Source of the DNA: Hybos culiciformis
Lineage: Eukaryota > Arthropoda > Insecta > Diptera > Hybotidae
DNA length: 64,000 nucleotides
NCBI GenBank assembly: GCA_964007475.1
Contig: OZ023274.1
Coordinates: 60,346,076 to 60,410,075 of the forward strand
Direction of reading: 5' to 3'
Of this stretch, positions 11,722 through 61,561 are shown one piece after another. The first letter of the stretch is position 1. Every line of letters begins with the position of its first letter. The translations under genes and the position numbers were made by a program. The notes beneath the pieces were generated by a model. The model was given only the letters and a program-made list of their open reading frames with translations. It was not told the origin of the DNA and did not search any database.

Positions 11722-11792
11722 ATTCATATCTTCCGAGAAAAGAAACTATTTCAATATGACAGGCCGGAGTTTTACTGTGACTTAAAAGAAGC

Positions 11793-11824
11793 GAGAACTG
11801 ATTCATCGTTTTCATTCAGTTCTC
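11793..11824 (-). ncRNA. Candidate omega-RNA-type hairpin downstream of Fanzor (unit 1; same in every unit)
   Basis: A perfect 9-bp stem GAGAACTGA/TCAGTTCTC with a 14-base loop starts six bases after the Fanzor stop codon. It recurs in every unit at ORF end minus 37 to minus 6 (for example 14124-14155, 39705-39736, 59349-59380). TnpB and Fanzor guide RNAs are encoded over and just beyond the 3' end of the nuclease gene, so position and structure fit; transcription is not shown. A terminator or mRNA 3' structure is the alternative. Confidence 0.4.
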
Positions 11825-11829
11825 ACACA

Positions 11830-12882: not shown

Positions 12883-12884
12883 AT

Positions 12885-13532: not shown

Positions 13533-13882
13533 TGTTGATTGAATATAAATAAACAATGCTTAGTTTTATCGGGTGAACCTGATTTAACTCATATTTAACT
13601 CAAGTTTTAAACACCGTAATTTTTGTATCATAAACGTCCTTTAACTCAACAACTATTTATGAATATTTTTGAAAACTTATTTGAACGCGAAGTTTGGAAA
13701 ACATAAAAAAATAATTTTAAAGCCCATTCTGCGTCTTTCATGTTTTTTCTGAAAAGAAAACATAATTTTTTATTTTTACGAAAGCCAATAAAATTTTATG
13801 AAGTATATACTTATTCCGCTGACGGGTGGCATACAGTTGCCCAAATGATATTTGTTAATCCGAGATTTGCCAACGGTCGCTA

Positions 13883-14059
13883 ACATTTCCAATTCCACAT
13901 TTGCCAATTCTACATTTGCCAATTCTACATTTTATAATCCGACATTTGATAATCTGTTCTATAATTTCTGTGAACAATTCACTAAAATCATGTGCAATGT
14001 TTTTGAAACACTGTTCAATAATTTCTGTGAACAATTCACTAAAATCATTTGCATTCATA
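13883..14059. repeat. Short tandem repeats in each unit spacer
   Basis: Five tandem 14-15-base repeats of the form YACATTTGCCAATTC (13883-13955) are followed by two copies of a 57-base repeat beginning GTTCWATAATTTCTGTG (13956 and 14013). The same block occurs 3' of every Fanzor copy. The repeats lack the identical-repeat, unique-spacer structure of CRISPR. They keep open frames on both strands because 15 and 57 are multiples of three. Confidence 0.85.
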
Positions 14060-14160
14060 TCTTCCGAGAAAAGAAACTATTTCAATATGACAGGCCGGAG
14101 TTTTACTGTGACTTAAAAGAAGCGAGAACTGATTCATCGTTTTCATTCAGTTCTCACACA

Positions 14161-15210
14161 TTACCGCAACGAATACGACACATTGTTTTTAATATGTATT
14201 TCGTAGCCTGCTTGTAGAATATTCTGACTAGCATTTATGTCTCTATTCCACACAATTCTGCATTTTTTGCAACTTGAATATCTGTGTGGACTTTGCGATA
14301 CATCATGGTCATCCAAGCAGCTGCTACATTTTTTCGTTGTATTATACTCGTCCACCATTATCAGCTGAATTTTTGGATGCGAGTTCAGCGTTATTGATAA
14401 TAGTTTCAAAGGGGTCCTTATGTACCCCTTCATTGGACTATTTTGCGCGGTTTGGGTGCTTCCCAAGAAAACTGTTATTAATTTTTCATTTTTAACTAAG
14501 TTTTCTTTAATCCATTTATTTAAAGCACTTCTTCTCCGGATAAATGCGTCAAATCTTAATCGGGAAATTTTTGGTCGAATATATGATTTGGTTTTTTGTG
14601 AAAACCATAATAAATTCAATTTCACTTTCTCATTCATCCAGTTAGTCCACCAATCTTCTGTGGTGCTTCTCTGGATGAAATCTATTTTATTTTCTTCAAT
14701 TTTTTTCTCTATATGAGAAGTGAACTTCTCCAATTTATATTTCCTTGCATAATGATTATCAGTATAATAATTTTTTGTATAATATTTAATGTTATTCAAA
14801 TTTGAATAAACATTTTTCTGATTGTACGGGTCATCATTGCTGGATCGTACAGCTGCCACGAACATTTTATTTCCAGGATCAATTCCAATGTTCACTGGTG
14901 TTGGCTTGAATTCTTCTGTTATTTCAGATGGTTCCTTTCTTTCCTTTATTTCCTTTATAAATTTTATAGAACAGGAAACCCCATCTGTTGAAAAACTCAT
15001 GCACTCCAAGTTTTTTCGTGGCAGCTTCAAATAATCGCTGTAATCAAAAGTGCCATTAAACTGTTCGAAGGATTGGTTAACATCTTTGTTTGTTTTCAAA
15101 CTCTTCGTTTTCGGGCACTTTTTCACCGAACTTAACAAATGATAGAAAGCATAATGACCGTAGTCTAAATGCTTTCTAAAACATTTGAACTTCGGCAACA
15201 AGATGACCAT
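14161..15210 (-). CDS. 5'-truncated Fanzor copy, unit 2 (349 aa)
   Basis: As unit 1, but with an in-frame 3-base deletion that changes YTDNGHYARK to YTDNHYARK. It has KVKLNLLW where other copies have KVKFNLLW. The RuvC and zinc-ribbon residues are intact. Confidence 0.8.
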   Translation of the reverse strand: MVILLPKFKCFRKHLDYGHYAFYHLLSSVKKCPKTKSLKTNKDVNQSFEQFNGTFDYSDYLKLPRKNLECMSFSTDGVSCSIKFIKEIKERKEPSEITEEFKPTPVNIGIDPGNKMFVAAVRSSNDDPYNQKNVYSNLNNIKYYTKNYYTDNHYARKYKLEKFTSHIEKKIEENKIDFIQRSTTEDWWTNWMNEKVKLNLLWFSQKTKSYIRPKISRLRFDAFIRRRSALNKWIKENLVKNEKLITVFLGSTQTAQNSPMKGYIRTPLKLLSITLNSHPKIQLIMVDEYNTTKKCSSCLDDHDVSQSPHRYSSCKKCRIVWNRDINASQNILQAGYEIHIKNNVSYSLR

Positions 15211-18818: not shown

Positions 18819-19868
18819 TTACCGCAACGAATACGACACATTGTTTTTAATATGTATTTCGTAGCCTGCTTGTAGAATATTCTGACTAGCATTTATGTCT
18901 CTATTCCACACAATTCTGCATTTTTTGCAACTTGAATATCTGTGTGGACTTTGCGATACATCATGGTCATCCAAGCAGCTGCTACATTTTTTCGTTGTAT
19001 TATACTCGTCCACCATTATCAGCTGAATTTTTGGATGCGAGTTCAGCGTTATTGATAATAGTTTCAAAGGGGTCCTTATGTACCCCTTCATTGGACTATT
19101 TTGCGCGGTTTGGGTGCTTCCCAAGAAAACTGTTATTAATTTTTCATTTTTAACTAAGTTTTCTTTAATCCATTTATTTAAAGCACTTCTTCTCCGGATA
19201 AATGCGTCAAATCTTAATCGGGAAATTTTTGGTCGAATATATGATTTGGTTTTTTGTGAAAACCATAATAAATTGAATTTCACTTTCTCATTCATCCAGT
19301 TAGTCCACCAATCTTCTGTGGTGCTTCTCTGGATGAAATCTATTTTATTTTCTTCAATTTTTTTCTCTATATGAGAAGTGAACTTCTCCAATTTATATTT
19401 CCTTGCATAATGATTATCAGTATAATAATTTTTTGTATAATATTTAATGTTATTCAAATTTGAATAAACATTTTTCTGATTGTACGGGTCATCATTGCTG
19501 GATCGTACAGCTGCCACGAACATTTTATTTCCAGGATCAATTCCAATGTTCACTGGTGTTGGCTTGAATTCTTCTGTTATTTCAGATGGTTCCTTTCTTT
19601 CCTTTATTTCCTTTATAAATTTTATAGAACAGGAAACCCCATCTGTTGAAAAACTCATGCACTCCAAGTTTTTTCGTGGCAGCTTCAAATAATCGCTGTA
19701 ATCAAAAGTGCCATTAAACTGTTCGAAGGATTGGTTAACATCTTTGTTTGTTTTCAAACTCTTCGTTTTCGGGCACTTTTTCACCGAACTTAACAAATGA
19801 TAGAAAGCATAATGACCGTAGTCTAAATGCTTTCTAAAACATTTGAACTTCGGCAACAAGATGACCAT
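18819..19868 (-). CDS. 5'-truncated Fanzor copy, unit 4 (349 aa)
   Basis: Intact frame with the 3-base-shorter HY form, like unit 2. The alternation GHY, HY, GHY, HY across units 1-4 suggests that pairs of units were duplicated together. Confidence 0.8.
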   Translation of the reverse strand: MVILLPKFKCFRKHLDYGHYAFYHLLSSVKKCPKTKSLKTNKDVNQSFEQFNGTFDYSDYLKLPRKNLECMSFSTDGVSCSIKFIKEIKERKEPSEITEEFKPTPVNIGIDPGNKMFVAAVRSSNDDPYNQKNVYSNLNNIKYYTKNYYTDNHYARKYKLEKFTSHIEKKIEENKIDFIQRSTTEDWWTNWMNEKVKFNLLWFSQKTKSYIRPKISRLRFDAFIRRRSALNKWIKENLVKNEKLITVFLGSTQTAQNSPMKGYIRTPLKLLSITLNSHPKIQLIMVDEYNTTKKCSSCLDDHDVSQSPHRYSSCKKCRIVWNRDINASQNILQAGYEIHIKNNVSYSLR

Positions 19869-21145: not shown

Positions 21146-22197
21146 TTACCGCAACGAATACGACACATTGTTTTTAATATGTATTTCGTAGCCTGCTTGT
21201 AGAATATTCTGACTAGCATTTATGTCTCTATTCCACACAATTCTGCATTTTTGCAACTTGAATATCTGTGTGGACTTTGCGATACATCATGGTCATCCAA
21301 GCAGCTGCTACATTTTTTCGTTGTATTATACTCGTCCACCATTATCAGCTGAATTTTTGGATGCGAGTTCAGCGTTATTGATAATAGTTTCAAAGGGGTC
21401 CTTATGTACCCCGTCATTGAACTATTTTGCGCGGTTTGGGTGCTTCCCAAGAAAACTGTTATTAATTTTTCATTTTTAACTAAGTTTTCTTTAATCCATT
21501 TATTTAAAGCACTTCTTCTCCGGATAAATGCGTCAAATCTTAATCGGGAAATTTTTGGTCGAATATATGATTTGGTTTTTTGTGAAAACCATAATAAATT
21601 GAATTTCACTTTCTCATTCATCCAGTTAGTCCACCAATCTTCTGTGGTGCTTCTCTGGATGAAATCTATTTTATTTTCTTCAATTTTTTTCTCTATATGA
21701 GAAGTGAACTTCTCCAATTTATATTTCCTTGCATAATGACCGTTATCAGTATAATAATTTTTTGTTTAATATTTAATGTTATTCAAATTTGAATAAACAT
21801 TTTTCTGATTGTACGGGTCATCATTGCTGGATCGTACAGCTGCCACGAACATTTTATTTCCAGGATCAATTCCAATGTTCACCGGTGTTGGCTTGAATTC
21901 TTCTGTTATTTCAGATGGTTCCTTTCTTTCCTTTATTTCCTTTATAAATTTTATAGAACAGGAAACCCCATCTGTTGAAAAACTCATGCACTCCAAGTTT
22001 TTTCGTGGCAGCTTCAAATAATCGCTGTAATCAAAAGTGCCATTAAACTGTTCGAAGGATTGGTTAACATCTTTGTTTGTTTTCAAACTCTTCGTTTTCG
22101 GGCACTTTTTCACCGAACTTAACAAATGATAGAAAGCATAATGACCGTAGTCTAAATGCTTTCTAAAACATTTGAACTTCGGCAACAAGATGACCAT
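21146..22197 (-). pseudogene. Broken truncated Fanzor copy, unit 5
   Basis: Two breaks: an A-to-T change (plus strand, near 21766) makes a stop after NNIKY, and a one-base deletion in the T run near 21250 shifts the frame just before the last CX2C. The same NNIKY stop is shared by units 6 and 7, so those units are related by descent. Confidence 0.85.
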
Positions 22198-22545
22198 ATA
22201 ATATCATATTTTCGGGACTAATATTATATTTTCGGGACTAATAATTTATTATTTATTAATAAAAATTATCTACCCAGATTTGGCAGTGCAATAATTGCAT
22301 CGAACTCTTCTGTACTTCCGACAATGGTGACTTAAAGTGACATTTCTTTTTTTTTTGTATTCAACTTATTACTAACAATTACATATACAGATTATTTTTT
22401 TCTTAATTCACTAAAACTAACTTAAAATTTGTCATAATTTTTATTACATTTTTTTTTTTTTTTTTTTATAAACTAACTTAAAATTTGTCATAAGGACTTT
22501 CCTATTCTAATAATATCTTATATGCTTTCCAAACTGGGAATTTTA

Positions 22546-23318
22546 TAGTACGTTCAGTAAGTACAGATTGTCCGTAGCTAAGGAATTCCCTTTTCTGCAA
22601 AATACTGCAAATAACTTCTGCAAAGCCCTACGATAAGGACAGCTGTGACATTTCATTTTAAAATCATATACATTAAAAAAATTTATATGGGCATATTAAA
22701 ATGTGTCATTTGTTGTTTTTCAGATTTTAAAGAATAATTTGTAACATTTATTAATAATATGCTTATATTTTGTTTAAGCAAATACAAATTTAATGAAATT
22801 TCAAAAATTCTGCATTTTCTTAAATGTTTTTAAGCTAACAAAAAAAAAATAAAATTTATGAAAAATAAAAATTAATACAAATTGTTTAGTGAAATGCATG
22901 AACAAAAATTGAGTGAATGTGTTTTTTATTTTTACATATATTTCTGTTTCTGTATTGAATCATGCTGAATATCGCTTGCAAGTTCTTTAATAGAGCAAAA
23001 AAGTACGAACAATTTACTTTTTAAATAAGATCTTGTCTCACTTCAACATGAATTATTACTTCCAATTCACTAGTGATTCACCAATGAAAAAGTATTTCTA
23101 TTTCTGAAACTAGTGTCATGCCATTTGAACAAATATTAAAAGTACAAAGCACCTGATTTTTTTTTTATTTTATTTTATTTATTGTATCTTTAGATTTAAA
23201 CCAACAGTTTACAAAACTAATTCTAGGTTTAAAATAGAAAAATTTACATATAGATAAGCTTAAAAAGAAGTCTTATATAAAAAAATTTATTAAATACATA
23301 CTTTTTTCTTATTTTTTT

Positions 23319-23367
<49 letters not shown>

Positions 23368-24805
23368 TTTATTCAAAATATCTACATAGTATTATTTTAC
23401 TTTTTTTTTTTTTTTTTTTATTTATTTTTTTTTTTTTTTATTATTTGTTTTATATTTATTAAGTTTTTTAAAAAAATATATATATATTCGTTAAAAAATA
23501 TATGAAAATTCAAGTTTCAATAATTATAATACAACATAAGTATTTAATTCTAATTTCAAAAATTAATTGTAACAAATTTGAAGTAATAGCATGAATTCAT
23601 TTTTATTAAAAGAAGGAAAGAGATGAGGAAAGCAAGCAATATTATTATTGAGATAAAATCAGAGAGTTAAGGAAAGTAACTTCTTACGTACCTCATTCTT
23701 TGGGAAATAAGAAAAACTGCAGATATCCACGTCCATGAACAACTGATTATGATTCCTCTGTGCTCGTATTATTGGTGATTTGAACAGCAAATTAGTTCTG
23801 GATTGTGGAATCCTGAATAGGTAATAAATTATTCTGGGAGATCTGAGAGTCCAGTTGAAATTAATTTTTTCAAGAAGATAAGTTGATTGTATTTTTGATG
23901 TTATTATTTTATGTAAAAACATTTCATCTAGGAATATGCGGCGTTTCTCGAGAGATAGCAAGTTGTAGGATACTAATCTATCCGAATATTCTTGATAAGG
24001 AAAATAAAATTTATAGTGTAAGAGTCTTGTAAATTTTTTTTGTATTTTTTCTATATGATCTACGTATATTTTATAAATTGGATTCCATACGGAACTAGCA
24101 TATTCAAGTGAACTACGAACCAGAGAGTTAAATAAGGTAATTAATTAATGATGTCTTATTAACATTATGCCTCCTTTACGAAGTTTCTTAATTTTTTCTT
24201 GTTGTAGCCAATTTTTATTTAAAAGTTAAAATGTTTGATATCTCGAAAAATAAAGAAGACATCAAAATTTTTATTTAATTTGCATAAAAATTTGAAAACA
24301 ATCATTATAAAGGAAGCAGAATAGCTACGTAGTAAAATGTAAACAAGAAATCGGTATAAACCTTTTTAAAGTATATGGGTTGAACTAAATTTGATAAAAT
24401 ATGTAAATAAAATTAAAAATTTTATATTTTTATTAAAAATTTTATATGTTTATTTAAAATTTTATATTTTATTTAAATAAAAATATAAAATTTCGAATTT
24501 TATTTAGGAAAACATAAAATTTTGTTAAAATTCATTTTTTTTATTTGTTTTTAATCAAAATATTCATTGTCCTTAGCTAAGGCCAACTAAAAAGTACTCC
24601 CAGAATACGGACTATTATGGGAAATTATGAAATTTCCCTTTGCAGAAGTTTTGAGGTAGGATTGCATTACTGAACGATTTTTTGTAGAAATTGTCTGTAT
24701 TTAAGGACTTTAGCTGTCAGATTTTGTCTTTCACAAACTTCAGATTGTCTGCAACGTAGGATTTTGTCACTAGCTAAGGACAATCTGTACTTACTGAACG
24801 TACTA
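22546..24805. mobile_element. TIR DNA transposon copy 1 (2,260 bp, non-autonomous), inserted in the unit 5 spacer
   Basis: The ends are inverted repeats of about 35 bases (28 perfect) starting TAGTACGTTCAGTAAGTACA. Comparison with empty units shows a 3-base target duplication TTA (22543-22545 and 24806-24808). A TWA duplication is typical of PIF/Harbinger elements, but no transposase is seen, so the superfamily is tentative. The subterminal regions repeat TAGCTAAGG motifs. The interior is AT-rich with long T tracts and carries a non-LTR RT remnant. Confidence 0.85.
23659..24150 (-). pseudogene. Non-LTR retrotransposon RT C-terminal remnant inside the TIR element (copy 1)
   Basis: A minus-strand open stretch of about 160 codons (only the last 100 start with Met, at 23961) contains SSLEYASSVWNPIY, then IEKIQKKFTRLL, LEKRRIFLDEMFLHKI and FRIPQSRTNLLFKSPIIRAQ. 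These are the characteristic order of segments in the region after the RT domain of arthropod Jockey/R1-like non-LTR elements. No polymerase YADD region is present and a stop lies upstream, so it is a fragment that inserted into or was captured by the TIR element. Confidence 0.7.
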
Positions 24806-25737
24806 TTATTCATAAATTAAATCAGGTTATCCCTCAATTGAAAATTGCTGTTCACACTATGAAAACCAGGGCTAATTTTGTTGTCTTTTATATATTTTTG
24901 TTGTTAAATTTCTAAATAAAAATTAGTGAATAAAATTTAATCAAATATTCTATATGTGAATTAAAATTCGAAAAATAAAAATTACAAAAAAAAAATTGTA
25001 TTATTTTTATTCTTTTTTTGTAGCCATTTTTTATTTTTTTTTATTTTTCAAATGCCCAACAGATTTATTTAGTTCAATGAATATGTTCTGATTACAAGAT
25101 TTCAGAACATGTTGATTGAATATAAATAAACAATGCTTAGTTTTATCGGGTGAACCTGATTTAACTCATATTTAACTCAAGTTTTAAACACCGTAATTTT
25201 TGTATCATAAACGTCCTTTAACTCAACAACTATTTATGAATATTTTTGAAAACTTATTTGAACGCGAAGTTTGGAAAACATAAAAAAATAATTTTAAAGC
25301 CCATTCTGCGTCTTTCATGTTTTTTCTGAAAAGAAAACATAATTTTTTATTTTTACGAAAGCCAATAAAATTTTATGAAGTATATACTTATTCCGCTGAC
25401 GGGTGGCATACAGTTGCCCAAATGATATTTGTTAATCCGAGATTTGCCAACGGTCGCTAACATTTCCAATTCCACATTTGCCAATTCTACATTTGCCAAT
25501 TCTACATTTGATAATCCGACATTTGATAATCTGTTCTATAATTTCTGTGAACAATTCACTAAAATCATGTGCAATATTTTTGAAACACTGTTCAATAATT
25601 TCTGTGAACAATTCACTAAAATCATTTGCATTCATATCTTCCGAGAAAAGAAACTATTTCAATATGACAGGCCGGAGTTTTACTGTGACTTAAAAGAAGC
25701 GAGAACTGATTCATCGTTTTCATTCAGTTCTCACACA

Positions 25738-26873
25738 TTACCGCAACGAATACGACACATTGTTTTTAATATGTATTTCGTAGCCTGCTTGTAGAATATT
25801 CTGACTAGCGTTTATGTCTCTATTCCACACAATTCTGCATTTTTTGCAACTTGAATATCTGTGTGGACTTTGCGATACATCATGGTCATCCAAGCAGCTG
25901 CTACATTTTTTCGTTGTATTATACTCGTCCACCATTATCAGCTGAATTTTTGGATGCGAGTTCAGCGTTATTGATAATAGTTTCAAAGGGGTCCTTATGT
26001 ACCCCTTCATTGGACTATTTTGCGCGGTTTGGGTGCTTCCCAAGAAAACTGTTATTAATTTTTCATTTTTAACTAAGTTTTCTTTAATCCATTTATTTAA
26101 AGCACTTCTTCTCCGGATAAATGCGTCAAATCTTAATCGGGAAATTTTTGTTCGAATATATGATTTGGTTTTTTGTGAAAAACTTTTTCACCGAACTTAA
26201 CAAATGATAGAAAGCATAATGACCGTAGTCTAAATGCTTTCTAAAACATTTGAACTTCGGCAACAAGATGACCATATAATTTCACTTTCTCATTCATCCA
26301 GTTAGTCCACCAATCTTCTGTGGTGCTTCTCTGGATGAAATCTATTTTATTTTCTTCAATTTTTTTCTCTATATGAGAAGTGAACTTCTCCAATTTATAT
26401 TTCCTTGCATAATGACCGTTATCAGTATAATAATTTTTTGTTTAATATTTAATGTTATTCAAATTTGAATAAACATTTTTCTGATTGTACGGGTCATCAT
26501 TGCTGGATCGTACAGCTGCCACGAACATTTTATTTCCAGGATCAATTCCAATGTTCACTGGTGTTGGCTTGAATTCTTCTGTTATTTCAGATGGTTCCTT
26601 TCTTTCCTTTATTTCCTTTATAAATTTTATAGAACAGGAAACCCCATCTGTTGAAAAACTCATGCACTCCAAGTTTTTTCGTGGCAGCTTCAAATAATCG
26701 CTGTAATCAAAAGTGCCATTAAACTGTTCGAAGGATTGGTTAACATCTTTGTTTGTTTTCAAACTCTTCGTTTTCGGGCACTTTTTCACCGAACTTAACA
26801 AATGATAGAAAGCATAATGACCGTAGTCTAAATGCTTTCTAAAACATTTGAACTTCGGCAACAAGATGACCAT
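25738..26873 (-). pseudogene. Broken, internally rearranged truncated Fanzor copy, unit 6
   Basis: It shares the NNIKY stop with unit 5. In addition, about 97 bases identical to its own 5' end (CTTTTTCACCGAAC...GACCATATAA, 26181-26279) replace a short stretch in the middle of the gene, splitting it into fragments at 25738-26043 and 26442-26873. The inserted block includes the truncated copy's ATG. Confidence 0.85.
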
Positions 26874-27221
26874 ATAATATCATATTTTCGGGACTAATAT
26901 TATATTTTCGGGACTAATAATTTATTATTTATTAATAAAAATTATCTACCCAGATTTGGCAGTGCAATAATTGCATCGAACTCTTCTGTACTTCCGACAA
27001 TGGTGACTTAAAGTGACATTTCTTTTTTTTTTGTATTCAACTTATTACTAACAATTACATATACAGATTATTTTTTTCTTAATTCACTAAAACTAACTTA
27101 AAATTTGTCATAATTTTTATTACATTTTTTTTTTTTTTTTTTTATAAACTAACTTAAAATTTGTCATAAGGACTTTCCTATTCTAATAATATCTTATATG
27201 CTTTCCAAACTGGGAATTTTA

Positions 27222-27994
27222 TAGTACGTTCAGTAAGTACAGATTGTCCGTAGCTAAGGAATTCCCTTTTCTGCAAAATACTGCAAATAACTTCTGCAAA
27301 GCCCTACGATAAGGACAGCTGTGACATTTCATTTTAAAATCATATACATTAAAAAAATTTATATGGGCATATTAAAATGTGTCATTTGTTGTTTTTCAGA
27401 TTTTAAAGAATAATTTGTAACATTTATTAATAATATGCTTATATTTTGTTTAAGCAAATACAAATTTAATGAAATTTCAAAAATTCTGCATTTTCTTAAA
27501 TGTTTTTAAGCTAACAAAAAAAAAAAAAAATTTATGAAAAATAAAAATTAATACAAATTGTTTAGTGAAATGCATGAACAAAAATTGAGTGAATGTGTTT
27601 TTTATTTTTACATATATTTCTGTTTCTGTATTGAATCATGCTGAATATCGCTTGCAAGTTCTTTAATAGAGCAAAAAAGTACGAACAATTTACTTTTTAA
27701 ATAAGATCTTGTCTCACTTCAACATGAATTATTACTTCCAATTCACTAGTGATTCACCAATGAAAAAGTATTTCTATTTCTGAAACTAGTGTCATGCCAT
27801 TTGAACAAATATTAAAAGTACAAAGCACCTGATTTTTTTTTTATTTTATTTTATTTATTGTATCTTTAGATTTAAACCAACAGTTTACAAAACTAATTCT
27901 AGGTTTAAAATAGAAAAATTTACATATAGATAAGCTTAAAAAGAAGTCTTATATAAAAAAATTTATTAAATACATACTTTTTTCTTATTTTTTT

Positions 27995-28041
<47 letters not shown>

Positions 28042-44985: not shown

Positions 44986-44986
44986 G

Positions 44987-45000: not shown

Positions 45001-45815
45001 AAAAAAAAAAAAAAAAAAAAAAAAACTGAAAAAGTTAAGTGTGAAAAAGTGAATTGTGAAGTAAAACATAAAAATTAAAAGAAGCCTATGAAAAAATAAT
45101 GTTCGATGTAAAATAATAAAATAATATTGAACACAAAGAATAAATTTAAAAAAAAAATAAAACACCATCCTAAAGAAAAATTATTTAAAAATAAAACACC
45201 ATCCCAAAGAATAAAAAATAAAATAAATGAAAACTCCAACAAACTGCGAGGAATATTTTAAAAATATAGAATAAAATAATAATAATATAAAAAAAAAAAA
45301 ATTATATGATATTAATCAAAAATTGATTTGGCGATTGAAACTTCAACAGTATAAAGAGGATTATACTGGTAACATCATTACAATAGGAACAATTAACAGA
45401 AAAATTTTTAAGCAGCATTGCAGGGGAATTGTATTATTATCTAAGCAGCAATATTTTAGTAAGTTAAAAAGTACAATAAAATATCATTGAACTTTGTTAA
45501 AATTAAGAAATTTGATATAGTACTTGTATAAAAAAAAAAAAAAAAAGTAAACAAATTTTATGATTACTGTTAGGTTTTAAACCAAATTTTTGTTCTGTTT
45601 TTAGTAATTTGACCATATATAAAAAAAAAAAATTAAATAAAATTTGTGTTTTAACTGATAAGAAAAATAAAAATTAATTTTTTTTGGAAAATAAAAAGGG
45701 GTAAATATTACTAGATATTAAAAGATATAATTATTTAGCCAATTAATAATTTTTTTTTTTTACATTTGAATTGATGTACCAAATACATTGATTAAATACG
45801 TTTTATTTAGAAGTA
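45001..45815 (+). other. A-rich leader of element B
   Basis: No frame above background. A moderately complex stretch at 45300-45500 (GGCGATTGAAACTTCAACAG...) is flanked by A runs. It leads to the gag ATG. Confidence 0.5.
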
Positions 45816-47489: not shown

Positions 47490-48676
47490 ATATAGCAGAG
47501 CAAAAAAAATTTTCACCGACAATACACGTAGAATTAGATATTAGTAATAATCCTAAAGTAGAATTATTGGTGGATACTGGCTCTGAAGTTAGTTTAATAA
47601 ATAGCGACGTTATAAAAAAAGCTGTTGAAATAAATGTTAATGAAAAAATTATTTTGAGTTCGATAAATGGAAAAACTGAAACACTAGGTAAAGTAGTAGG
47701 TAATATAATGATACCAAATTATGAAGAAAAAATTATAAATCAGCAAAATCAAAATGAAAACGAATTATTAAATAAGGAAAAAATTAAAGTACAATGTGAA
47801 TTTAATGTAATAAAAAAAAATAAGAATATACCGGGAGATGGGATTTTAGGTTTTAACTTTTTAAAAGAAAATTGTAATGTCGAAGGACCAAATCAAATTC
47901 TCAGATTTCCTCGCATGGAAACTGAAACTGAAATTCTAATAAACAATCATAATGACATTGTACAGTCTAATGCTAACAGTGATTGTTATGATTTTGGGAA
48001 AATATTTGCGAGTTTTCACAATGACATATTTGAAAATTGTAAGAAAGGAAGAGACGATGTTGAACATGTGACAGTATTTTCAATTCCAGCTCGTTCAAAA
48101 AAAAGTTTTAAAATCCCAATAATCCTGAAAGAGGAGGCTATATGTTTTTCAACAGAAATCAGTCCTGGAGTGTTTTTAGCAAATAGCTTAATTAAACCGA
48201 TTAATGGGTACGTAGTAGTGGGTCTAATGAATGTTAATGATTTTGATGTTACAATTGATAAAATAGAATTAAATACAATGCCCTTAAATGAATATAGAAT
48301 TGGAAATTTAAAGAATTTTACAGAAAGAGAATGTAGTTCAAAGAAAAAATTAGGTTACAAAAATAGAAGTAAAAGATATGAAGCGAAAATAAATTATTGT
48401 AAAATTAATAACGAAGAAATTGACGAAAAAAGATGTAAACTACTATTAGAAGAAATAAATTTAGATGGTACGTTAAATGATATCGAAAAAGAGTCTGTTA
48501 CTCAAATTTGTAAAGAATATAATAGTATTTTTTTTCTGCCTGAAGATAAATTGTCACATACAGACGAAGCTGTACATTCAATTATAACCCCACTAGATTC
48601 AGCACCAATAAATCAAAAGATGTATCGGTTACCACAAATACATAAAGAAGTAATGTTCATGTTAGGGAAATGTTAG
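47451..48676 (+). pseudogene. pol: Pol of element B, first segment (protease to RT start), broken
   Basis: The -1 frame reads from the frameshift site into an aspartic protease with LLVDTGSEVSLIN (about 47564-47600) and a later ILGFNFLKE flap-end motif, then a linker and the start of the reverse transcriptase (NQKMYRLPQIHKEV). There it stops at TAG near 48674. The RT continues in another frame from about 48657, so a small indel around 48650 breaks pol. No conventional ATG precedes the protease; expression would be by frameshifting from gag. Confidence 0.85.
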
Positions 48677-50205
48677 AAAATAAAATTATTGAGCTTAGTA
48701 AAAGCCCGTGGAATTCACCTTTATTAGTGGTTCCGAAAAAATCAGGGCCTGATAAAAAAAAAAATTGGCGGGTCGTTGTAGATTTTAGAAAAATAAATGA
48801 TATAACAGTCGGGGATGCGTATCCTCTACCACGAATGGAAGATATATTAGACCAATTAGGGCATTCACGGTATTTCACCACTCTGGATTTGGCAAGTGGA
48901 TATCATCAAATTTTAATGGACGACAAGGACAAGGAAAAAACCGCATTTAGCACTCCGGAGGGACATTATCATTTTTTAAGAATGCCATTTGGTTTGAAAA
49001 ATAGTCCAGCCACTTTTCAGCGAAAAATGTCAATAATAATGTCTGGTTTAGAGGGAATAGATTGCCTTATATATTTAGATGATATAGTAATATACGCAAA
49101 GAATTTAGAAGACCACAATAAGAAACTTATCCGAGTATTTGACCGTTTAAAATCGAGTAACTTGAAGTTGCAACCACGTAAATGCCAATTTCTCAGTAAG
49201 GAGGTAGTTTACCTGGGTCATAAATGTTCGGCTTTGGGGGCGGAACCAGATCCGGGTAAAGTTCAGTGTGTGATAAATTTTCCAACTCCTAATTCGGTTA
49301 AAACGGTACAAAGTTTTCTAGGTCTAGCAAATTACTATCGTAAATTCATACCTAACTTTTCAGCCGTAGCAAACCCCCTTAATAAATTATTGCGAAAAGA
49401 GTCAAAGTTTAAATGGGATCCTGAGTGTGAAAAATCTTTTGTTAAATTAAAAAATGCCCTAGTACAGCCACCTGTACTAGCATATCCAGATTTTGACAAG
49501 AAATTTTTTTTAACAACTGACGCTAGTTCTGAGGCATTAGGTGCTGTATTGTTTCAAGGCGATAATTCTGATAACGAACACCCTATTGCGTACGCTAGTC
49601 GAACTCTTAACACCGCCGAAAAAAATTATTCAACAATCGAAAGAGAATTATTAGCAGTAGTTTGGGCGATAAAAAATTTTCATTGTTACTTATATGGAAA
49701 ACCATTCACTGTTTTTTCAGACCATAAGCCTTTACAAAATTTTAAAAAATTCAAAGACATTAGTTCTCGATTAACCCGATTCCAATTAAAACTTTCTGAA
49801 TACGATTTCGATATTATTTATAAGGCTGGAAAATTAAATACGAATGCGGACAGTCTAAGTCGAATACCAAACGTTGAAGAACAGAAAAAGAATTGTTTTG
49901 TAACTACTCGAGCAACAGCCAAACAAGTAAAAAATGCCAATTCAAAAAATACTGAAAATTCAATTTATGAAAATAATGAAAATAATGCTAACAACGATAA
50001 TTCTGAAGAAGATACTGAGAGCGATGAAAATTCAGATGAAGATATAAATTTCAACGATAAAATAGAAGAAGTTAATAACGTTAAAGATCAACAATTAATT
50101 ATAAAAGAATATCATGACTCATTGTTTGGTGGACATCAAGGTTTTCAGAGGACGTATAAAAGAATAAAAACAAATATAAATGGAAGAGTATGCAGAAAGA
50201 TATAA
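48670..50205 (+). pseudogene. pol: Pol of element B, second segment (RT, RNase H, start of integrase)
   Basis: 511 codons. RT with VVVDFRKIND, catalytic Asp73 (TLDLASGYHQ), MPFGLKNSPATFQ and the YLDD box at 135-138. RNase H with TTDASSEALGAVLF, the ERELLAVVWAIKNF helix and FSDHKPLQNF, ending in NTNADSLSRIP. An acidic Asn-rich linker follows, then the two His of the integrase HHCC finger (EYHDSLFGGHQGF). The frame ends at TAA 50203-50205 inside the finger; its two cysteines are in the next frame. Confidence 0.9.
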
Positions 50206-51116
50206 AAAGTTTTGTTAAGAAATGTCGAAAATGCCAACAAAATAAAATTTCAAGAAATACTAAGATGCACATGCAAATGACCGATGTAGCGACGTATCCA
50301 TTTGATAAAGTTTATATGGACATTGTTGGACCATTAGAGGTTACACATGCAGGTAATAGGTACATTTTGACTTTTATGGACGATTTAAGCAGGTTTATGG
50401 ACTGTTATGCTTTGCCTACTATTGAAGCAGAACAATTAGCTAGGATTTTAGTAGACGAAATCATAAGTAGGTACAAAATTCCAAAATCTTTGGTAACGGA
50501 TCAGGGTAGCAACTTCACAAGCGAATTATTCAAAAAAACATGTAAGCTATTAAAAATTAAAAAGATACAGACAACTGCCTATCACCCTCAGTCAAATGGT
50601 GCATTGGAACGTTCGCATAGGTCATTAGCAGAATATCTTCGGAATTTTACAGATGCAGACTCAAAAACGTGGGATCAGATATTAAGACAAGCAATGTTCG
50701 TGCATAATAATACTCCACATTCATCGACTAAACTAACACCAATGGAATGTTTATTTGGTTTTAAATCTGATGTACCGACAAATATACAACAAAAAATTCA
50801 ACCGATATATGATTTTGAAAACTACTTCTATCAAATTCGATATAAATTACAAAAAGCTCATGCAATTGCCCGACAAAATTTAGAAAAAAGTAAAGAAATT
50901 TCAAAAAAACAATACGATAAGAATGCCAACCCCAAACATTTTAAGATAGGCGAGAAGGTGTTGTTGAAAAATCCGGTAATAAAGGGAAAATTTTCGCAAA
51001 TTTGGTTAGGACCATTTGAAGTCACAGAAGTAAACAGCCCTGTTAATGTCACAATTAAAATTGGAAGAAAATTTAAAAGAGTAAATAATAATAGATTGAA
51101 AAAATTCTATGAGTAA
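50190..51116 (+). pseudogene. pol: Pol of element B, third segment (integrase)
   Basis: 308 codons starting within the HHCC finger (CRKCQQNK). Integrase core with D44 (YMDIVGPL), D104 (VTDQGSNFTS) and E140 (ALERSHR), an exact DD35E, then HNNTPHSSTKLTPMECLFGF and a C-terminal domain ending RVNNNRLKKFYE. All catalytic residues are present, but a frame break near 50180 separates it from the rest of pol. Confidence 0.9.
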
Positions 51117-51258
51117 TAAAATTTTCCTTTAATATTAGATCTTAATTAACATACTATACAAAATAAAAAAAAAAAAGAAAAAAAAAAAAAAAGGAGGTAC
51201 AATGTAAATAACGATGTTAAATTCTAATGCAATTTTTTATTTTTAGTAAAAAATAAAA
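51117..51258 (+). repeat. Polypurine tract and truncated 3' LTR of element B
   Basis: A long A run ending AAAAGGAGGT (to 51198) has polypurine tract form. It is followed by TGTAAATAACGATGTT at 51203, the likely LTR start. Only about 56 bases remain before the sequence becomes Fanzor unit spacer at about 51259 (CCTTCCGACAATGG against CTTCCGACAATGG in the units). Confidence 0.55.
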
Positions 51259-52423
51259 TAACCTTCCGACAATGGTGACTTAAAGTGACATTTCTTTTTT
51301 TTTTGTATTCAACTTATTACTAACAATTACATATACAGATTATTTTTTTCTTAATTCACTAAAACTAACTTAAAATTTGTCATAATTTTTATTACATTTT
51401 TTTTTTTTTTTTTTTTATAAACTAACTTAAAATTTGTCATAAGGACTTTCCTATTCTAATAATATCTTATATGCTTTCCAAACTGGGAATTTTATTCATA
51501 AATTAAATCAGGTTATCCCTCAATTGAAAATTGCTGTTCACACTATGAAAACCAGGGCTAATTTTGTTGTCTTTTATATATTTTTGTTGTTAAATTTCTA
51601 AATAAAAATTAGTGAATAAAATTTAATCAAATATTCTATATGTGAATTAAAATTCGAAAAATAAAAATTACAAAAAAAAAATTATATTATTTTTATTCTT
51701 TTTTTGTAGCCATTTTTTATTTTTTTTTATTTTTCAAATGCCCAACAGATTTATTTAGTTCAATGAATATGTTCTGATTACAAGATTTCAGAACATGTTG
51801 ATTGAATATAAATAAACAATGCTTAGTTTTATCGGGTGAACCTGATTTAACTCATATTTAACTCAAGTTTTAAACACCGTAATTTTTGTATCATAAACGT
51901 CCTTTAACTCAACAACTATTTATGAATATTTTTGAAAACTTATTTGAACGCGAAGTTTGGAAAACATAAAAAAATAATTTTAAAGCCCATTCTGCGTCTT
52001 TCATGTTTTTTCTGAAAAGAAAACATAATTTTTTATTTTTACGAAAGCCAATAAAATTTTATGAAGTATATACTTATTCCGCTGACGGGTGGCATACAGT
52101 TGCCCAAATGATATTTGTTAATCCGAGATTTGCCAACGGTCGCTAACATTTCCAATTCCACATTTGCCAATTCTACATTTGCCAATTCTACATTTGATAA
52201 TCCGACATTTGATAATCTGTTCTATAATTTCTGTGAACAATTCACTAAAATCATGTGCAATGTTTTTGAAACACTGTTCAATAATTTCTGTGAACAATTC
52301 ACTAAAATCATTTGCATTCATATCTTCCGAGAAAAGAAACTATTTCAATATGACAGGCCGGAGTTTTACTGTGACTTAAAAGAAGCGAGAACTGATTCAT
52401 CGTTTTCATTCAGTTCTCACACA

Positions 52424-53476
52424 TTACCGCAACGAATACGACACATTGTTTTTAATATGTATTTCGTAGCCTGCTTGTAGAATATTCTGACTAGCATTTA
52501 TGTCTCTATTCCACACAATTCTGCATTTTTTGCAACTTGAATATCTGTGTGGACTTTGCGATACATCATGGTCATCCAAGCAGCTGCTACATTTTTTCGT
52601 TGTATTATACTCGTCCACCATTATCAGCTGAATTTTTGGATGCGAGTTCAGCGTTATTGATAATAGTTTCAAAGGGGTCCTTATGTACCCCTTCATTGGA
52701 CTATTTTGCGCGGTTTGGGTGCTTCCCAAGAAAACTGTTATTAATTTTTCATTTTTAACTAAGTTTTCTTTAATTCATTTATTTAAAGCACTTCTTCTCC
52801 GGATAAATGCGTCAAATCTTAATCGGGAAATTTTTGGTCGAATATATGATTTGGTTTTTTGTGAAAACCATAATAAATTGAATTTCACTTTCTCATTCAT
52901 CCAGTTAGTCCACCAATCTTCTGTGGTGCTTCTCTGGATGAAATCTATTTTATTTTCTTCAATTTTTTTCTCTATATGAGAAGTGAACTTCTCCAATTTA
53001 TATTTCCTTGCATAATGACCGTTATCAGTATAATAATTTTTTGTATAATATTTAATGTTATTTAAATTTGAATAAACATTTTTCTGATTGTACGGGTCAT
53101 CATTGCTGGATCGTACAGCTGCCACGAACATTTTATTTCCAGGATCAATTCCAATGTTCACTGGTGTTGGCTTGAATTCTTCTGTTATTTCAGATGGTTC
53201 CTTTCTTTCCTTTATTTCCTTTATAAATTTTATAGAACAGGAAACCCCATCTGTTGAAAAACTCATGCACTCCAAGTTTTTTCGTGGCAGCTTCAAATAA
53301 TCGCTGTAATCAAAAGTGCCATTAAACTATTCGAAGGATTGGTTAACATCTTTGTTTGTTTTCAAACTCTTCGTTTTCGGGCACTTTTTCACCGAACTTA
53401 ACAAATGATAGAAAGCATAATGACCGTAGTCTAAATGCTTTCTAAAACATTTGAACTTCGGCAACAAGATGACCAT
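52424..53476 (-). pseudogene. Broken truncated Fanzor copy, array 2 unit 1
   Basis: Two nonsense changes: Trp to stop in KWIKE (near 52773) and Gln to stop in FEQFNG (near 53328). Both look like single C-to-T or G-to-A changes. The GHY form is otherwise intact. Confidence 0.85.
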
Positions 53477-57081: not shown

Positions 57082-58131
57082 TTACCGCAACGAATACGAC
57101 ACATTGTTTTTAATATGTATTTCGTAGCCTGCTTGTAGAATATTCTGACTAGCATTTATGTCTCTATTCCACACAATTCTGCATTTTTTGCAACTTGAAT
57201 ATCTGTGTGGACTTTGCGATACATCATGGTCATCCAAGCAGCTGCTACATTTTTTCGTTGTATTATGCTCGTCCACCATTATCAGCTGAATTTTTGGATG
57301 CGAGTTCAGCGTTATTGATAATAGTTTCAAAGGGGTCCTTATGTACCCCTTCATTGGACTATTTTGCGCGGTTTGGGTGCTTCCCAAGAAAACTGTTATT
57401 AATTTTTCATTTTTAACTAAGTTTTCTTTAATCCATTTATTTAAAGCACTTCTTCTCCGGATAAATGCGTCAAATCTTAATCGGGAAATTTTTGGTCGAA
57501 TATATGATTTGGTTTTTTGTGAAAACCATAATAAATTGAATTTCACTTTCTCATTCATCCAGTTAGTCCACCAATCTTCTGTGGTGCTTCTCTGGATGAA
57601 ATCTATTTTATTTTCTTCAATTTTTTTCTCTATATGAGAAGTGAACTTCTCCAATTTATATTTCCTTGCATAATGATTATCAGTATAATAATTTTTTGTA
57701 TAATATTTAATGTTATTCAAATTTGAATAAACATTTTTCTGATTGTACGGGTCATCATTGCTGGATCGTACAGCTGCCACGAACATTTTATTTCCAGGAT
57801 CAATTCCAATGTTCACTGGTGTTGGCTTGAATTCTTCTGTTATTTCAGATGGTTCCTTTCTTTCCTTTATTTCCTTTATAAATTTTATAGAACAGGAAAC
57901 CCCATCTGTTGAAAAACTCATGCACTCCAAGTTTTTTCGTGGCAGCTTCAAATAATCGCTGTAATCAAAAGTGCCATTAAACTGTTCGAAGGATTGGTTA
58001 ACATCTTTGTTTGTTTTCAAACTCTTCGTTTTCGGGCACTTTTTCACCGAACTTAACAAATGATAGAAAGCATAATGACCGTAGTCTAAATGCTTTCTAA
58101 AACATTTGAACTTCGGCAACAAGATGACCAT
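57082..58131 (-). CDS. 5'-truncated Fanzor copy, array 2 unit 3 (349 aa)
   Basis: Intact frame, HY form, VDEHNTT variant like array 1 unit 10. Confidence 0.8.
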   Translation of the reverse strand: MVILLPKFKCFRKHLDYGHYAFYHLLSSVKKCPKTKSLKTNKDVNQSFEQFNGTFDYSDYLKLPRKNLECMSFSTDGVSCSIKFIKEIKERKEPSEITEEFKPTPVNIGIDPGNKMFVAAVRSSNDDPYNQKNVYSNLNNIKYYTKNYYTDNHYARKYKLEKFTSHIEKKIEENKIDFIQRSTTEDWWTNWMNEKVKFNLLWFSQKTKSYIRPKISRLRFDAFIRRRSALNKWIKENLVKNEKLITVFLGSTQTAQNSPMKGYIRTPLKLLSITLNSHPKIQLIMVDEHNTTKKCSSCLDDHDVSQSPHRYSSCKKCRIVWNRDINASQNILQAGYEIHIKNNVSYSLR

Positions 58132-59348
58132 ATAATATCATATTTTCGGGACTAATATTATATTTTCAGGACTAATAATTTATTATTTATTAATAAAAAT
58201 TATCTACCCAGATTTGGCAGTGCAATAATTGCATCGAACTCTTCTGTACTTCCGACAATGGTGACTTAAAGTGACATTTCTTTTTTTTTTGTATTCAACT
58301 TATTACTAACAATTACATATACAGATTATTTTTTTCTTATTTCACTAAAACTAACTTAAAATTTGTCATAATTTTTATTACATTTTTTTTTTTTTTTTTT
58401 TTATAAACTAACTTAAAATTTGTCATAAGGACTTTCCTATTCTAATAATATCTTATATGCTTTCCAAACTGGGAATTTTATTCATAAATTAAATCAGGTT
58501 ATCCCTCAATTGAAAATTGCTGTTCACACTATGAAAACCAGGGCTAATTTTGTTGTCTTTTATATATTTTTGTTGTTAAATTTCTAAATAAAAATTAGTG
58601 AATAAAATTTAATCAAATATTCTATATGTGAATTAAAATTCGAAAAATAAAAATTACAAAAAAAAAATTATATTATTTTTAGTCTTTTTTTGTAGCCATT
58701 TTTTATTTTTTTTTATTTTTCAAATGCCCAACAGATTTATTTAGTTCAATGAATATGTTCTGATTACAAGATTTCAGAACATGTTGATTGAATATAAATA
58801 AACAATGCTTAGTTTTATCGGGTGAACCTGATTTAACTCATATTTAACTCAAGTTTTAAACACCGTAATTTTTGTATCATAAACGTCCTTTAACTCAACA
58901 ACTATTTATGAATATTTTTGAAAACTTATTTGAACGCGAAGTTTGGAAAACATAAAAAAATTATTTTAAAGCCCATTCTGCGTCTTTCATGTTTTTTCTG
59001 AAAAGAAAACATAATTTTTTATTTTTACGAAAGCCAATAAAATTTTATGAAGTATATACTTATTCCCAAATGATATTTGTTAATCCGAGATTTCCCAACG
59101 GTCGCTAACATTTCCAATTCCACATTTGCCAATTCTACATTTGCCAATTCTACATTTGATAATCCGACATTTGATAATCTGTTCTATAATTTCTGTGAAC
59201 AATTCACTAAAATCATGTGCAATGTTTTTGAAACACTGTTCAATAATTTCTGTGAACAATTCACTAAAATCATTTGCATTCATATCTTCCGAGAAAAGAA
59301 ACTATTTCAATATGACAGGCCGGAGTTTTACTATGACTTAAAAGAAGC

Positions 59349-59380
59349 GAGAACTGATTCATCGTTTTCATTCAGTTCTC
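59349..59380 (-). ncRNA. Candidate omega-RNA-type hairpin at the 3' end of full-length OTU-Fanzor copy 2
   Basis: The same 9-bp stem as in the array units. Because this copy has lost its normal stop, the ORF now ends at 59372, inside the 3' arm of the hairpin, so coding sequence and hairpin overlap here, as omega-RNAs and TnpB genes often do. Confidence 0.4.
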
Positions 59381-61561
59381 ACACCGCAACGAATACGACA
59401 CATTGTTTTTAATATGTATTTCGTAGCCTGCTTGTAGAATATTCTGACTAGCATTTATGTCTCTATTCCACACAATTCTGCATTTTTTGCAACTTGAATA
59501 TCTGTGTGGACTTTGCGATACATCATGGTCATCCAAGCAGCTGCTACATTTTTTCGTTGTATTATACTCGTCCACCATTATCAGCTGAATTTTTGGATGC
59601 GAGTTCAGCGTTATTGATAATAGTTTCAAAGGGGTCCTTATGTACCCCTTCATTGGACTATTTTGCGCGGTTTGGGTGCTTCCCAAGAAAACTGTTATTA
59701 ATTTTTCATTTTTAACTAAGTTTTCTTTAATCCATTTATTTAAAGCACTTCTTCTCCGGATAAATGCGTCAAATCTTAATTGGGAAATTTTTGGTCGAAT
59801 ATGTGATTTGGTTTTTTGTGAAAACCATAATAAATTGAATTTCACTTTCTCATTCATCCAGTTAGTCCACCAATCTTCTGTGGTGCTTCTCTGGATGAAA
59901 TCTATTTTATTTTCTTCAATTTTTTTCTCTATATGAGAAGTGAACTTCTCCAATTTATATTTCCTTGCATAATGACCGTTATCAGTATAATAATTTTTTG
60001 TATAATATTTAATGTTATTCAAATTTGAATAAACATTTTTCTGATTGTACGGGTCATCATTGCTGGATCGTACAGCTGCCACGAACATTTTATTTCCAGG
60101 ATCAATTCCAATGTTCACTGGTGTTGGCTTGAATTCTTCTGTTATTTCAGATGGTTCCTTTCTTTCCTTTATTTCCTTTATAAATTTTATAGAACAGGAA
60201 ACCCCATCTGTTGAAAAACTCATGCACTCCAAGTTTTTTCGTGGCAGCTTCAAATAATCGCTGTAATCAAAAGTGCCACTAAACTGTTCGAAGGATTGGT
60301 TAACATCTTTGTTTGTTTTCAAACTCTTCGTTTTCGGGCACTTTTTCACCGAACTTAACAAATGATAGAAAGCATAATGACCGTAGTCTAAATGCTTTCT
60401 AAAACATTTGAACTTCGGCAACAAGATGAAATTATTCCAACCATTTACTATATTTTCCTTGTAAATTTGGAAAAAATCTGGAAGAACTTCAAATGCATTC
60501 ATTTTATGAAAATGTGCCTTTTCCCATGGCATGATTTTCAATGTATTATGAGAGTCATCGGCGTCCTTTGAAAATAACCATTCCATGTTTTTCATTATTT
60601 CTTTGCGATGGTCCTGAATTTTTTCGATTTGATTTTTTTTAATCAAATAACGCCTGACTCTTGTAAATGCGTGTTCAACAATGTTCATTTCAAAGGCTGA
60701 TGAATATTTTTCTGCCAGAGCTCCGAATAGATTACTACGATATGATTTATCGTATTTTTGTAATCTAATTCTGAGACTTTTGTATTCTGGACATAAATCT
60801 TCGTGTTTTTTACAATCCATCAAACTATAAAAATATGACAGGAAATCAATTTTTTTCTTGCCATATTCATTTGAATTCAATTGGCGCATCAATTCAAAAT
60901 TAATCAGAATTGATGCCTCGTACGCCAAGATGCTCATTTCGTCGACATCTATTTGAATTTTATCATTTAAGCTGTCATCTTTTATGACGCTTTTTACTGA
61001 TAATTTCACTGTTGTAACACGAATGCCAGCGTCTTCATTCTGTACGCGTCTGGCGGTCGTTTTTCTTGTTACTTTCTCTGTTGTTGTTTTTATTTTTGGC
61101 GCTTTTTTTCCTTTGGTGGCAACATCTGGCTTCATTGTTTCTATCTTCTTTGAAGCCGCAACAGCTTTTTCCGCGACCACCTTCTGTGTGCGTCTGCTGG
61201 TAGTTTTTCTTGCTGGTTTTTTCTCTGCAGCGTCTGGCTTCACTGATTCCATGCGAATTTTTTTTGAAGCCGCATCAGCTTCTTCAGCTTTTCTTTTTTG
61301 ATGCTTAGATTCCACTGGAATCAAAGCATCAAAGTGTCCATTTGTGGTGTCGCCACTGTGCTTCAATCTTTTTATTGGCACATTATTTTCTCCGGTTGGG
61401 CGATATTCTGCCCGAAAAACTTTACCAACGTAAAGGCGAAACGCGCAACCGTAAACATGTGCCGCAGCTTTTAGCTCAGCAGTGGATCCATATGTGTTAT
61501 GATGTACCATATCTGACACATATTGATCAACACTGCCGTAAGGCTCACCGGTATTCATCAC
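59372..61561 (-). CDS. Full-length OTU-Fanzor nuclease, copy 2 (729 aa, open frame)
   Basis: Predicted RNA-guided DNA endonuclease of the Fanzor (eukaryotic TnpB-like) family. Residues 1-83 are the second half of an OTU cysteine protease domain (YGSVDQYVS, YGSTAELKAAAHVYG, catalytic-type His76 in NGHFDAL). Residues 85-190 are a Lys/Arg-rich linker with probable nuclear localisation signals. Residues 190-400 are helical, followed by a region leading to RuvC. RuvC-I Asp487 lies in VNIGIDPGNK. At the position where TnpB has its RuvC-II Glu this protein has Gly627 (VFLGSTQ), and Glu665 lies in VDEYNTTKKC, the rearranged site reported for Fanzors. Zinc ribbon C672, C675, C691, C694; RuvC-III Asp701 in NRDINASQNI. 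A 4-base deletion removes the usual stop, adding Cys-Glu-Asn. The ATG chosen is the first in frame, but the OTU frame continues upstream in another frame (61562-61740). Fanzor1-like is my best guess. Confidence 0.85.
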   Translation of the reverse strand: MMNTGEPYGSVDQYVSDMVHHNTYGSTAELKAAAHVYGCAFRLYVGKVFRAEYRPTGENNVPIKRLKHSGDTTNGHFDALIPVESKHQKRKAEEADAASKKIRMESVKPDAAEKKPARKTTSRRTQKVVAEKAVAASKKIETMKPDVATKGKKAPKIKTTTEKVTRKTTARRVQNEDAGIRVTTVKLSVKSVIKDDSLNDKIQIDVDEMSILAYEASILINFELMRQLNSNEYGKKKIDFLSYFYSLMDCKKHEDLCPEYKSLRIRLQKYDKSYRSNLFGALAEKYSSAFEMNIVEHAFTRVRRYLIKKNQIEKIQDHRKEIMKNMEWLFSKDADDSHNTLKIMPWEKAHFHKMNAFEVLPDFFQIYKENIVNGWNNFILLPKFKCFRKHLDYGHYAFYHLLSSVKKCPKTKSLKTNKDVNQSFEQFSGTFDYSDYLKLPRKNLECMSFSTDGVSCSIKFIKEIKERKEPSEITEEFKPTPVNIGIDPGNKMFVAAVRSSNDDPYNQKNVYSNLNNIKYYTKNYYTDNGHYARKYKLEKFTSHIEKKIEENKIDFIQRSTTEDWWTNWMNEKVKFNLLWFSQKTKSHIRPKISQLRFDAFIRRRSALNKWIKENLVKNEKLITVFLGSTQTAQNSPMKGYIRTPLKLLSITLNSHPKIQLIMVDEYNTTKKCSSCLDDHDVSQSPHRYSSCKKCRIVWNRDINASQNILQAGYEIHIKNNVSYSLRCEN

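Follow-up and report, generated by a model that had tools for sequence, protein, structure and literature searches.

Fanzors are recognized by an aspartate-proline-glycine (DPG) motif in RuvC1, a glutamate ahead of the zinc finger, and an aspartate in RuvC3, as set out in the accessible part of PMC10711439, and the catalytic and domain residues of SpuFz1, together with other Fanzor structures, are described in the accessible parts of PMC10432273 and PMC11423790. OTU domains are known from the transposons Ginger1 and Helitron (accessible part of PMC2836005), and OTU proteases occur in Helentrons, in an article whose accessible part also covers Helitron tandem arrays (PMC4067079). In the main text of the Fanzor papers checked for the term, OTU does not occur, and neither an OTU-Fanzor fusion nor a tandem Fanzor array was found in the literature searched, outside of which lay subscription papers, supplements, and most preprints. 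Here, we describe both in the genome of Hybos culiciformis (342-Mb assembly, 509 contigs), where a 64,000-nucleotide stretch, C2:60346076-60410075 (hereafter, the window), carries 15 head-to-tail copies of one Fanzor-type gene, all on the minus strand and all within positions 11722-61561; 13 of them are truncated at the 5' end, and 2 (copies A and B) are longer. The array probably reflects a young amplification, neutral in its pattern, of an OTU-Fanzor1 copy that is broken, and its notable parts are the OTU-Fanzor fusion and the repeated arraying, that is, the source gene family more than the array.

The window gene is a Fanzor1 by profile, by residue rule, and by predicted fold. The 729-residue open reading frame (ORF) of copy B matches PF07282 (41.5 bits), and a 20-sequence profile matched SpuFz1 (8gkh) with an E value of 9.7e-17 and GtFz1 (9cer) with an E value of 4e-11, profile positions 21-547 of 569 aligning to the latter; the single-sequence version of the same structure-database search gave weak matches only (E values of 0.15 and 0.44). 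D487, E665, and D701 of copy B align on SpuFz1 D383, E541, and D606 (numbering offset of 394, derived from the printed chain and checked on N385). In an AlphaFold model of the 729-residue ORF, the mean predicted local distance difference test score is 73.2, with the core mostly at 70-96 and residues 1-176 nearly all below 50, and the structures at Foldseek ranks 1-7 are all Fanzor1 (E values of 5.4e-17 to 4.7e-16; template modeling scores by query of 0.48-0.52). Profile search and structure prediction with this protein had been named beforehand as checks on the sequence-only reading of the gene as a Fanzor, and both returned a Fanzor1 match.

The RuvC1 DPG lies at residues 487-489 of copy B and recurs in copy A (C-terminal part), the eight truncated copies with open frames, and P0003, a relative from this genome; in the same proteins, the RuvC2 glutamate (E665 of copy B) stands six residues ahead of the first CxxC. 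The RuvC3 aspartate, D701, is the seventh residue past the last zinc-finger cysteine (4-8 in the criterion). Sixteen of the 19 proteins P0001-P0019 have the complete Fanzor residue pattern, in a form looser than that in the accessible part of PMC10711439 (cysteine pairs 2-4 apart, aspartate after 3-8), and P0002 matches only in this form. Organism names accompany 3 of the 18 relatives matched among the best 7999 candidates scored: two from the midge Diamesa hyperborea and one from the beetle Hypothenemus hampei. The RuvC D-E-D triad and the zinc ribbon, which the truncated copies had been said to keep, are retained in the eight open copies according to the residue-pattern scan. WED and REC are present in copy B and in P0003; the 13 truncated copies, which start at codon 378/379 (261/262 in SpuFz1), lack the first segment of WED and almost the whole of REC. 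Because the equivalent of SpuFz1 residues 1-261 is lost, the truncated proteins should be unable to recognize a target, and we infer from this sequence comparison that they would have lost activity.

The OTU-Fanzor fusion proposed for the window genes is real, because an open relative of 831 residues at C2:49.80 Mb (locus L012, protein P0003) has an N-terminal OTU domain, with PF02338 at residues 24-112 (31.6 bits against a cut-off of 23.3) and PF07282 at residues 762-813. Its motifs GDGACLF and GHFDAL, picked out by inspection, are what we take to be the catalytic cysteine and histidine motifs of OTU. In the window copies, the two motifs lie in different frames, and the 729-residue ORF gave no PF02338 match in the Pfam scan, the N-terminal half of its OTU domain being out of frame, and a weak Protein Data Bank match to an OTU protein (E value of 0.44). 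None of the eight scanned homologs from other sources has an OTU (PF02338) match, and within the material examined, the fusion is therefore seen in this genome only. A protein search with the 831-residue protein returned nothing at an E value of 0.01 among the best 8000 candidates scored, which does not imply that the fusion is absent elsewhere: the search words probably came largely from the low-complexity linker, and P0001 should have matched. No transposase was seen with OTU-Fanzor, and the copies at C2:49.80 Mb and on contig C291 share ∼4.25 kb around the gene, with interruptions; among the matches listed, none pairs the two ends of this stretch as inverted repeats. The stretch homologous to the L012 group starts near a possible splice acceptor, and an upstream exon of the gene is possible.

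The two longer copies in the window are laid out as follows.

59372-61561, minus strand: longer copy B, 729-residue ORF from a GTG that is not a real start; C-terminal half of OTU, Lys/Ala-rich linker, whole Fanzor core
61562-61752, minus strand: 5' extension of copy B, in a frame different from that of the ORF, with a start-like ATG at 61686-61684 and the OTU cysteine codon at 61668-61666
39742-41923, minus strand: longer copy A, split between ORFs at 40916-41923 and 39742-40956

Neither copy can encode the fusion in one frame, because the two share a 10-bp deletion inside the OTU part (in copy B at 61600/61599, relative to other copies). The deletion is absent from the other 15 rows aligned, which come from nine loci (L010, L028, L030, L037, L043, L012, L032, L033, and L002; L042 is without a row), L032 and L033 containing stops. 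The GTG that opens the 729-residue ORF falls within the OTU domain, whose cysteine motif (61686-61666) is read in a different frame, and a possible 3' splice acceptor AG, found by inspection, ends at 61753. Copy A has a second frameshift near 41000 besides the 10-bp deletion further upstream. An intact full-length nuclease had been expected at the head of each array; copies A and B are both frameshifted.

The remaining copies are listed in transcription order, with one example of the non-coding part of the unit.

58132-59371, minus strand: non-coding 3' region of the repeat unit, ∼1.2 kb
57082-58131, minus strand: truncated copy, open, 349 residues
54756-55808, minus strand: truncated copy, premature stop, the same stop as in the copy at 52424-53476
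52424-53476, minus strand: truncated copy, two premature stops; 3' region cut at 51263
37439-38491, minus strand: truncated copy, open, 350 residues
35110-36159, minus strand: truncated copy, open, 349 residues
32805-33854, minus strand: truncated copy, open, 349 residues
30414-31549, minus strand: truncated copy, internally rearranged, duplicate of 25738-26873
25738-26873, minus strand: truncated copy, internally rearranged
21146-22197, minus strand: truncated copy, premature stop and 1-bp deletion
18819-19868, minus strand: truncated copy, open, 349 residues
16489-17541, minus strand: truncated copy, open, 350 residues
14161-15210, minus strand: truncated copy, open, 349 residues
11830-12882, minus strand: truncated copy, open, 350 residues; last unit, with the array end at 11722

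Alignment confirmed the 15 copies on one strand, 13 truncated and 2 longer, with a longer copy leading each group in the direction of transcription and a period of ∼2.33 kb. The unit recurs over 11722-59371 on the minus strand; each truncated copy is ∼1.05 kb long and corresponds to the C-terminal part of the gene, and a complete unit adds the ∼1.2-kb 3' region, some units being incomplete, rearranged, or interrupted by an insertion. Copies A and B align with the unit from 40790 and 60429 downwards, respectively. Pieces of the unit aligned pairwise are 96.7-99.5% identical, the ORF parts of the 15 copies are 99.1-100% identical, and units differ from one another at 1-16 sites per ∼2.3 kb (the last, incomplete unit excluded). 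Frames are open in 8 of the 13 truncated copies, not in 9 as first counted. PF07282 matches number at least 14 inside the window and at least 32 genome-wide, the genome-wide counts being lower bounds.

Three further features bear on how the array was put together.

58120-58184, minus strand: unit junction (example), where a piece of an ABHD17-like exon meets the gene at codon 378/379 (numbering of the 729-residue ORF)
22547-24805: 2.26-kb insertion in one unit, with inverted ends (27 bp) and a fragment like a long interspersed nuclear element, both by inspection
41924-51261: flank of copy A, nested long terminal repeat (LTR) retrotransposons, the same as 61562-70907 at 99.3% (extended coordinates, past the window)

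Every truncated copy with a preserved 5' edge has one common breakpoint, at the exon fragment, which we presume to be ABHD17-like; Pfam gave just a below-cut-off hydrolase hint. At the window junctions, the fragment contains roughly two copies of a 20-bp piece, provides the truncated ORF with its ATG, and joins the Fanzor reading frame in a shared 3-base overlap, as in tandem duplication through microhomology, which the join resembles. A copy on contig C388, 95.5% identical to the window copy, has the 3' region in common with it, followed by ∼120 differing bases and then the ABHD17-like exon; the gene is not arrayed there, because the sole further match on the contig lies 50 kb away. The C388 exon reads into an in-frame stop and may therefore itself be a decayed copy; by inspection, it is followed by part of another ABHD17-like exon. 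An NAA25-like exon (PF09797, 87.4 bits) lies a few kb beyond the ABHD17-like exon in C388:33001-44587 (L010, L041).

Larger duplications are superimposed on the unit. The identity of 41924-51261 with 61562-70907 (99.3%) means that part of the array, a longer copy, and ∼9.35 kb of flank were duplicated in tandem; the two arrays of the sequence-only reading do exist as two groups, but they are not independent, since they represent a single array duplicated along with its flank. A ∼4.7-kb segment with the 2.26-kb insertion is present twice (21602-27222 and 26278-31877, 99.4%), and a 3-bp deletion in alternate units at the far end of the array looks like a higher-order repeat. In the right flank, two LTR-like pairs have diverged by 1 of 421 and 1 of 243 sites, respectively; these elements, too, are therefore young. 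The nested LTR-like elements extend over 43126-51261 and past the window, with outer repeats at 43126-43546, 62765-63185, and 80182-80602 and inner repeats at 44741-44983, 64393-64635, and 74514-74756 (extended coordinates); the reverse transcriptase of the inner element is at 48670-50205. The minus strand carries a Ty3/gypsy-like element at 3057-8180, with pol at 3057-6134, gag at 6062-7576, and a further ORF at 7488-8180. Antisense, plus-strand ORFs of ∼121 residues are found in the units (e.g., 13852-14217), with NSTFANSTF repeats from a 15-bp tandem repeat; one of this set was scanned (59077-59412) and gave a pentapeptide-like match only, below the cut-off.

Variation among the units is compatible with neutrality. 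In the 13 units that were aligned, namely 11 truncated copies plus copies A and B (the rearranged copies at 25738 and 30414 excluded), the 18 ORF variants comprise 12 non-synonymous, 3 synonymous, and 3 stop changes, where the spectrum of the 3' region predicts 17.6, 5.5, and 1.95 (binomial tests: 15 versus 3, p = 0.78; stops, p = 0.16), and variant density is 18/1047 in the ORF and 28/1275 in the 3' region (p = 0.46). As a mark of function, the open frames find no support in this comparison with the neutral expectation; the unit ORFs appear intact mainly because they are young. The ratio of non-synonymous to synonymous substitution rates (dN/dS) was estimated across 11 copies; for copy B against the distant L012, it is 0.33 over 346 codons of the RuvC part and 0.50 over 150 codons of the OTU C-terminal half, and for copy B against the closer L010, it is 0.84 over 340 codons of the RuvC part. 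By these estimates, the family was under constraint, and in the array none is detected.

The idea that the units, each with a hairpin, supply guide RNAs did not hold up. Over the first 100 bases 3' of the ORF, the 13 truncated units do not differ at all, and copies A and B have a single difference in common; there is therefore no bank of different guides, one guide at most. For 171 bases around the hairpin, folding is no stronger than in shuffled versions (z = -1.06), and in 12 loci compared by inspection, the nucleotide match of distant copies mostly stops at the stop codon or no more than ∼20 bases past it, the closer L010 and L034 sharing more of the window 3' region; with the subfamilies diverging beyond ∼20 bases, a conserved RNA structure past the stop was likewise rejected. 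Scans of the window with Rfam (gathering scores) and for transfer RNAs gave no match.

Members of the family are tandem or clustered at three other places in the genome. At C1:124.03-124.07 Mb, at least 48 copies of a 5' piece, many with the OTU part, follow each other at steps of ∼0.5 or 1.0 kb; at C3:26.89 Mb, two copies 99.97% identical lie 3,313 bp apart; and contig C291 has at least 6 copies on the same strand, 5 of them at steps of ∼11, 22, 22, and 11 kb. A regular 11-kb unit on C291 is not proven, because its 4-kb pieces align over just 1.1-3.2 kb (91-99% identical). The amplified piece varies from place to place (C-terminal half, N-terminal half, larger segments). As a weak control, ten further matches of one LTR-like repeat were pairs without arrays. 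Next to the OTU array, in L042 (C1:124022001-124027000), are minus-strand ORFs of 238, 116, and 103 residues; the two that were scanned gave no Pfam match.

We infer the following order of events. An OTU-Fanzor1 gene of a multi-copy family would have come to adjoin an ABHD17-like exon, and a tandem duplication with ends in that exon and in the Fanzor coding region, joined at the 3-base overlap, would have created the 2.33-kb unit, that is, the RuvC/NUC half plus ∼1.2 kb of 3' flank; the 10-bp deletion may have disrupted the OTU part before or after this step. Unequal exchange would then have multiplied the unit, and an element with inverted ends may have entered one unit and been copied along. 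Last, part of the array, a longer copy, and a ∼9.35-kb flank in which LTR retrotransposons had already accumulated would have been duplicated in tandem. The earlier suggestion of a satellite seeded by a nuclease gene comes close to these data in that the array derives from a piece of such a gene.

Several points weigh against a purely neutral amplification. Copy number is that of the assembly alone. The clustering of the family at three other places is not foreseen by a purely random account. Nucleotide diversity is 0.32% in the ORF, slightly below the 0.46% of the 3' region, and indels are fewer in the ORF (2 versus 9 events, p = 0.13), neither difference being significant; strong constraint on the units is unlikely on these figures, and weak constraint is possible given the few variants. 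The dN/dS values of other close pairs in the RuvC part, some from few changes, are not all near 1 (L012-L025, 0.59; L023-L031, 0.49; L029-L001, 0.74; L032-L033, 1.2), and gene conversion could mask an older history.

The clustering elsewhere is the point in favor of a nuclease that drives its own amplification, in which Fanzor would cut its own copies or their vicinity and arrays would form repeatedly as the breaks are repaired from one copy to another: it extends to C1:124.03-124.07 Mb, C3:26.89 Mb, and C291, and the LTR-like control repeat showed pairs without arrays. This repeated arraying is the sole positive point for the self-expanding element proposed earlier, and we regard self-amplification as very unlikely, given that the amplified piece differs between places, that a regular unit on C291 (1.1-3.2 kb shared) is not proven, that an excess over other repeats was not established, and that the junction was analyzed at the window only. 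Very unlikely too is the broader form of the idea, in which OTU-Fanzor1 genes would repeatedly trigger tandem amplification of their own neighborhood, the arrays being scars of self-targeting, and the OTU domain would tune the repair or stability of the enzyme. That the array is instead a working part of a Fanzor system, its units making either guide RNAs or a truncated protein of the nuclease lobe to assist or oppose open OTU-Fanzor copies such as the 831-residue one, is very unlikely: the neutral pattern of variants, the lack of guide diversity after the ORF (fold z of -1.06), and the loss of similarity within ∼20 bases of the stop in most distant copies, L010 and L034 excepted, outweigh the eight open frames with triad and zinc ribbon, the open relative in the same genome, and the hairpin-forming sequence shared by all units.

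Two accounts concern the origin of the repeat as such. Collapse or duplication errors in the assembly would produce segment pairs as similar as the two seen here (99.3-99.4%), and copy number comes from the assembly; units with their own variants, indels, and insertions, a large duplication that differs at ∼0.7% of columns, and further tandem or clustered family copies elsewhere make an artefact of the whole array or part of it highly unlikely. Rolling-circle amplification of the Helitron/Helentron type is suggested by the OTU proteases and tandem arrays of the accessible part of PMC4067079 and by Chlamydomonas Fanzor1 families that are linked to Helitrons and 5'-truncated with intact 3' ends (accessible part of PMC3627910). 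The truncated copies that preserve a 5' edge have one breakpoint, at a host exon fragment, instead of many 5' ends, and none of the ten window ORFs scanned has a Rep/helicase match (Helitron ends were not searched for), so that this route is extremely unlikely. The array is, in our view, real and probably a neutral macrosatellite.

An array that looks like neutral amplification is not to be taken as a bank of guide RNAs. An RNA-guided nuclease fused to a deubiquitinase-like OTU domain, open in one member, would be a Fanzor architecture not found in the literature searched and would connect the ubiquitin system with such a nuclease in a testable way, and several tandem or clustered sets of one family let one ask whether the nuclease helps to make them.

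Compared with SpuFz1, GtFz1, and PpFz1, the window family is alike in the RuvC1 DPG, the alternative glutamate six residues before the zinc finger, and the aspartate after it, and differs in its added N-terminal OTU domain and Lys/Ala-rich linker and in the broken state of the window copies. With Ginger1 and the Helentrons, it shares a PF02338 OTU domain linked to a mobile-element enzyme; here, OTU stands ahead of Fanzor, whereas there it stands behind a DDE transposase or forms a separate Helentron ORF. The window array resembles transposon-derived satellite and macrosatellite arrays, as a class, in its young, near-identical head-to-tail units made from a piece of a mobile-type gene and in its higher-order duplication and nested insertions, but here the seed is an RNA-guided nuclease, the unit includes a host exon fragment, and several places have arrayed different parts of one gene family.

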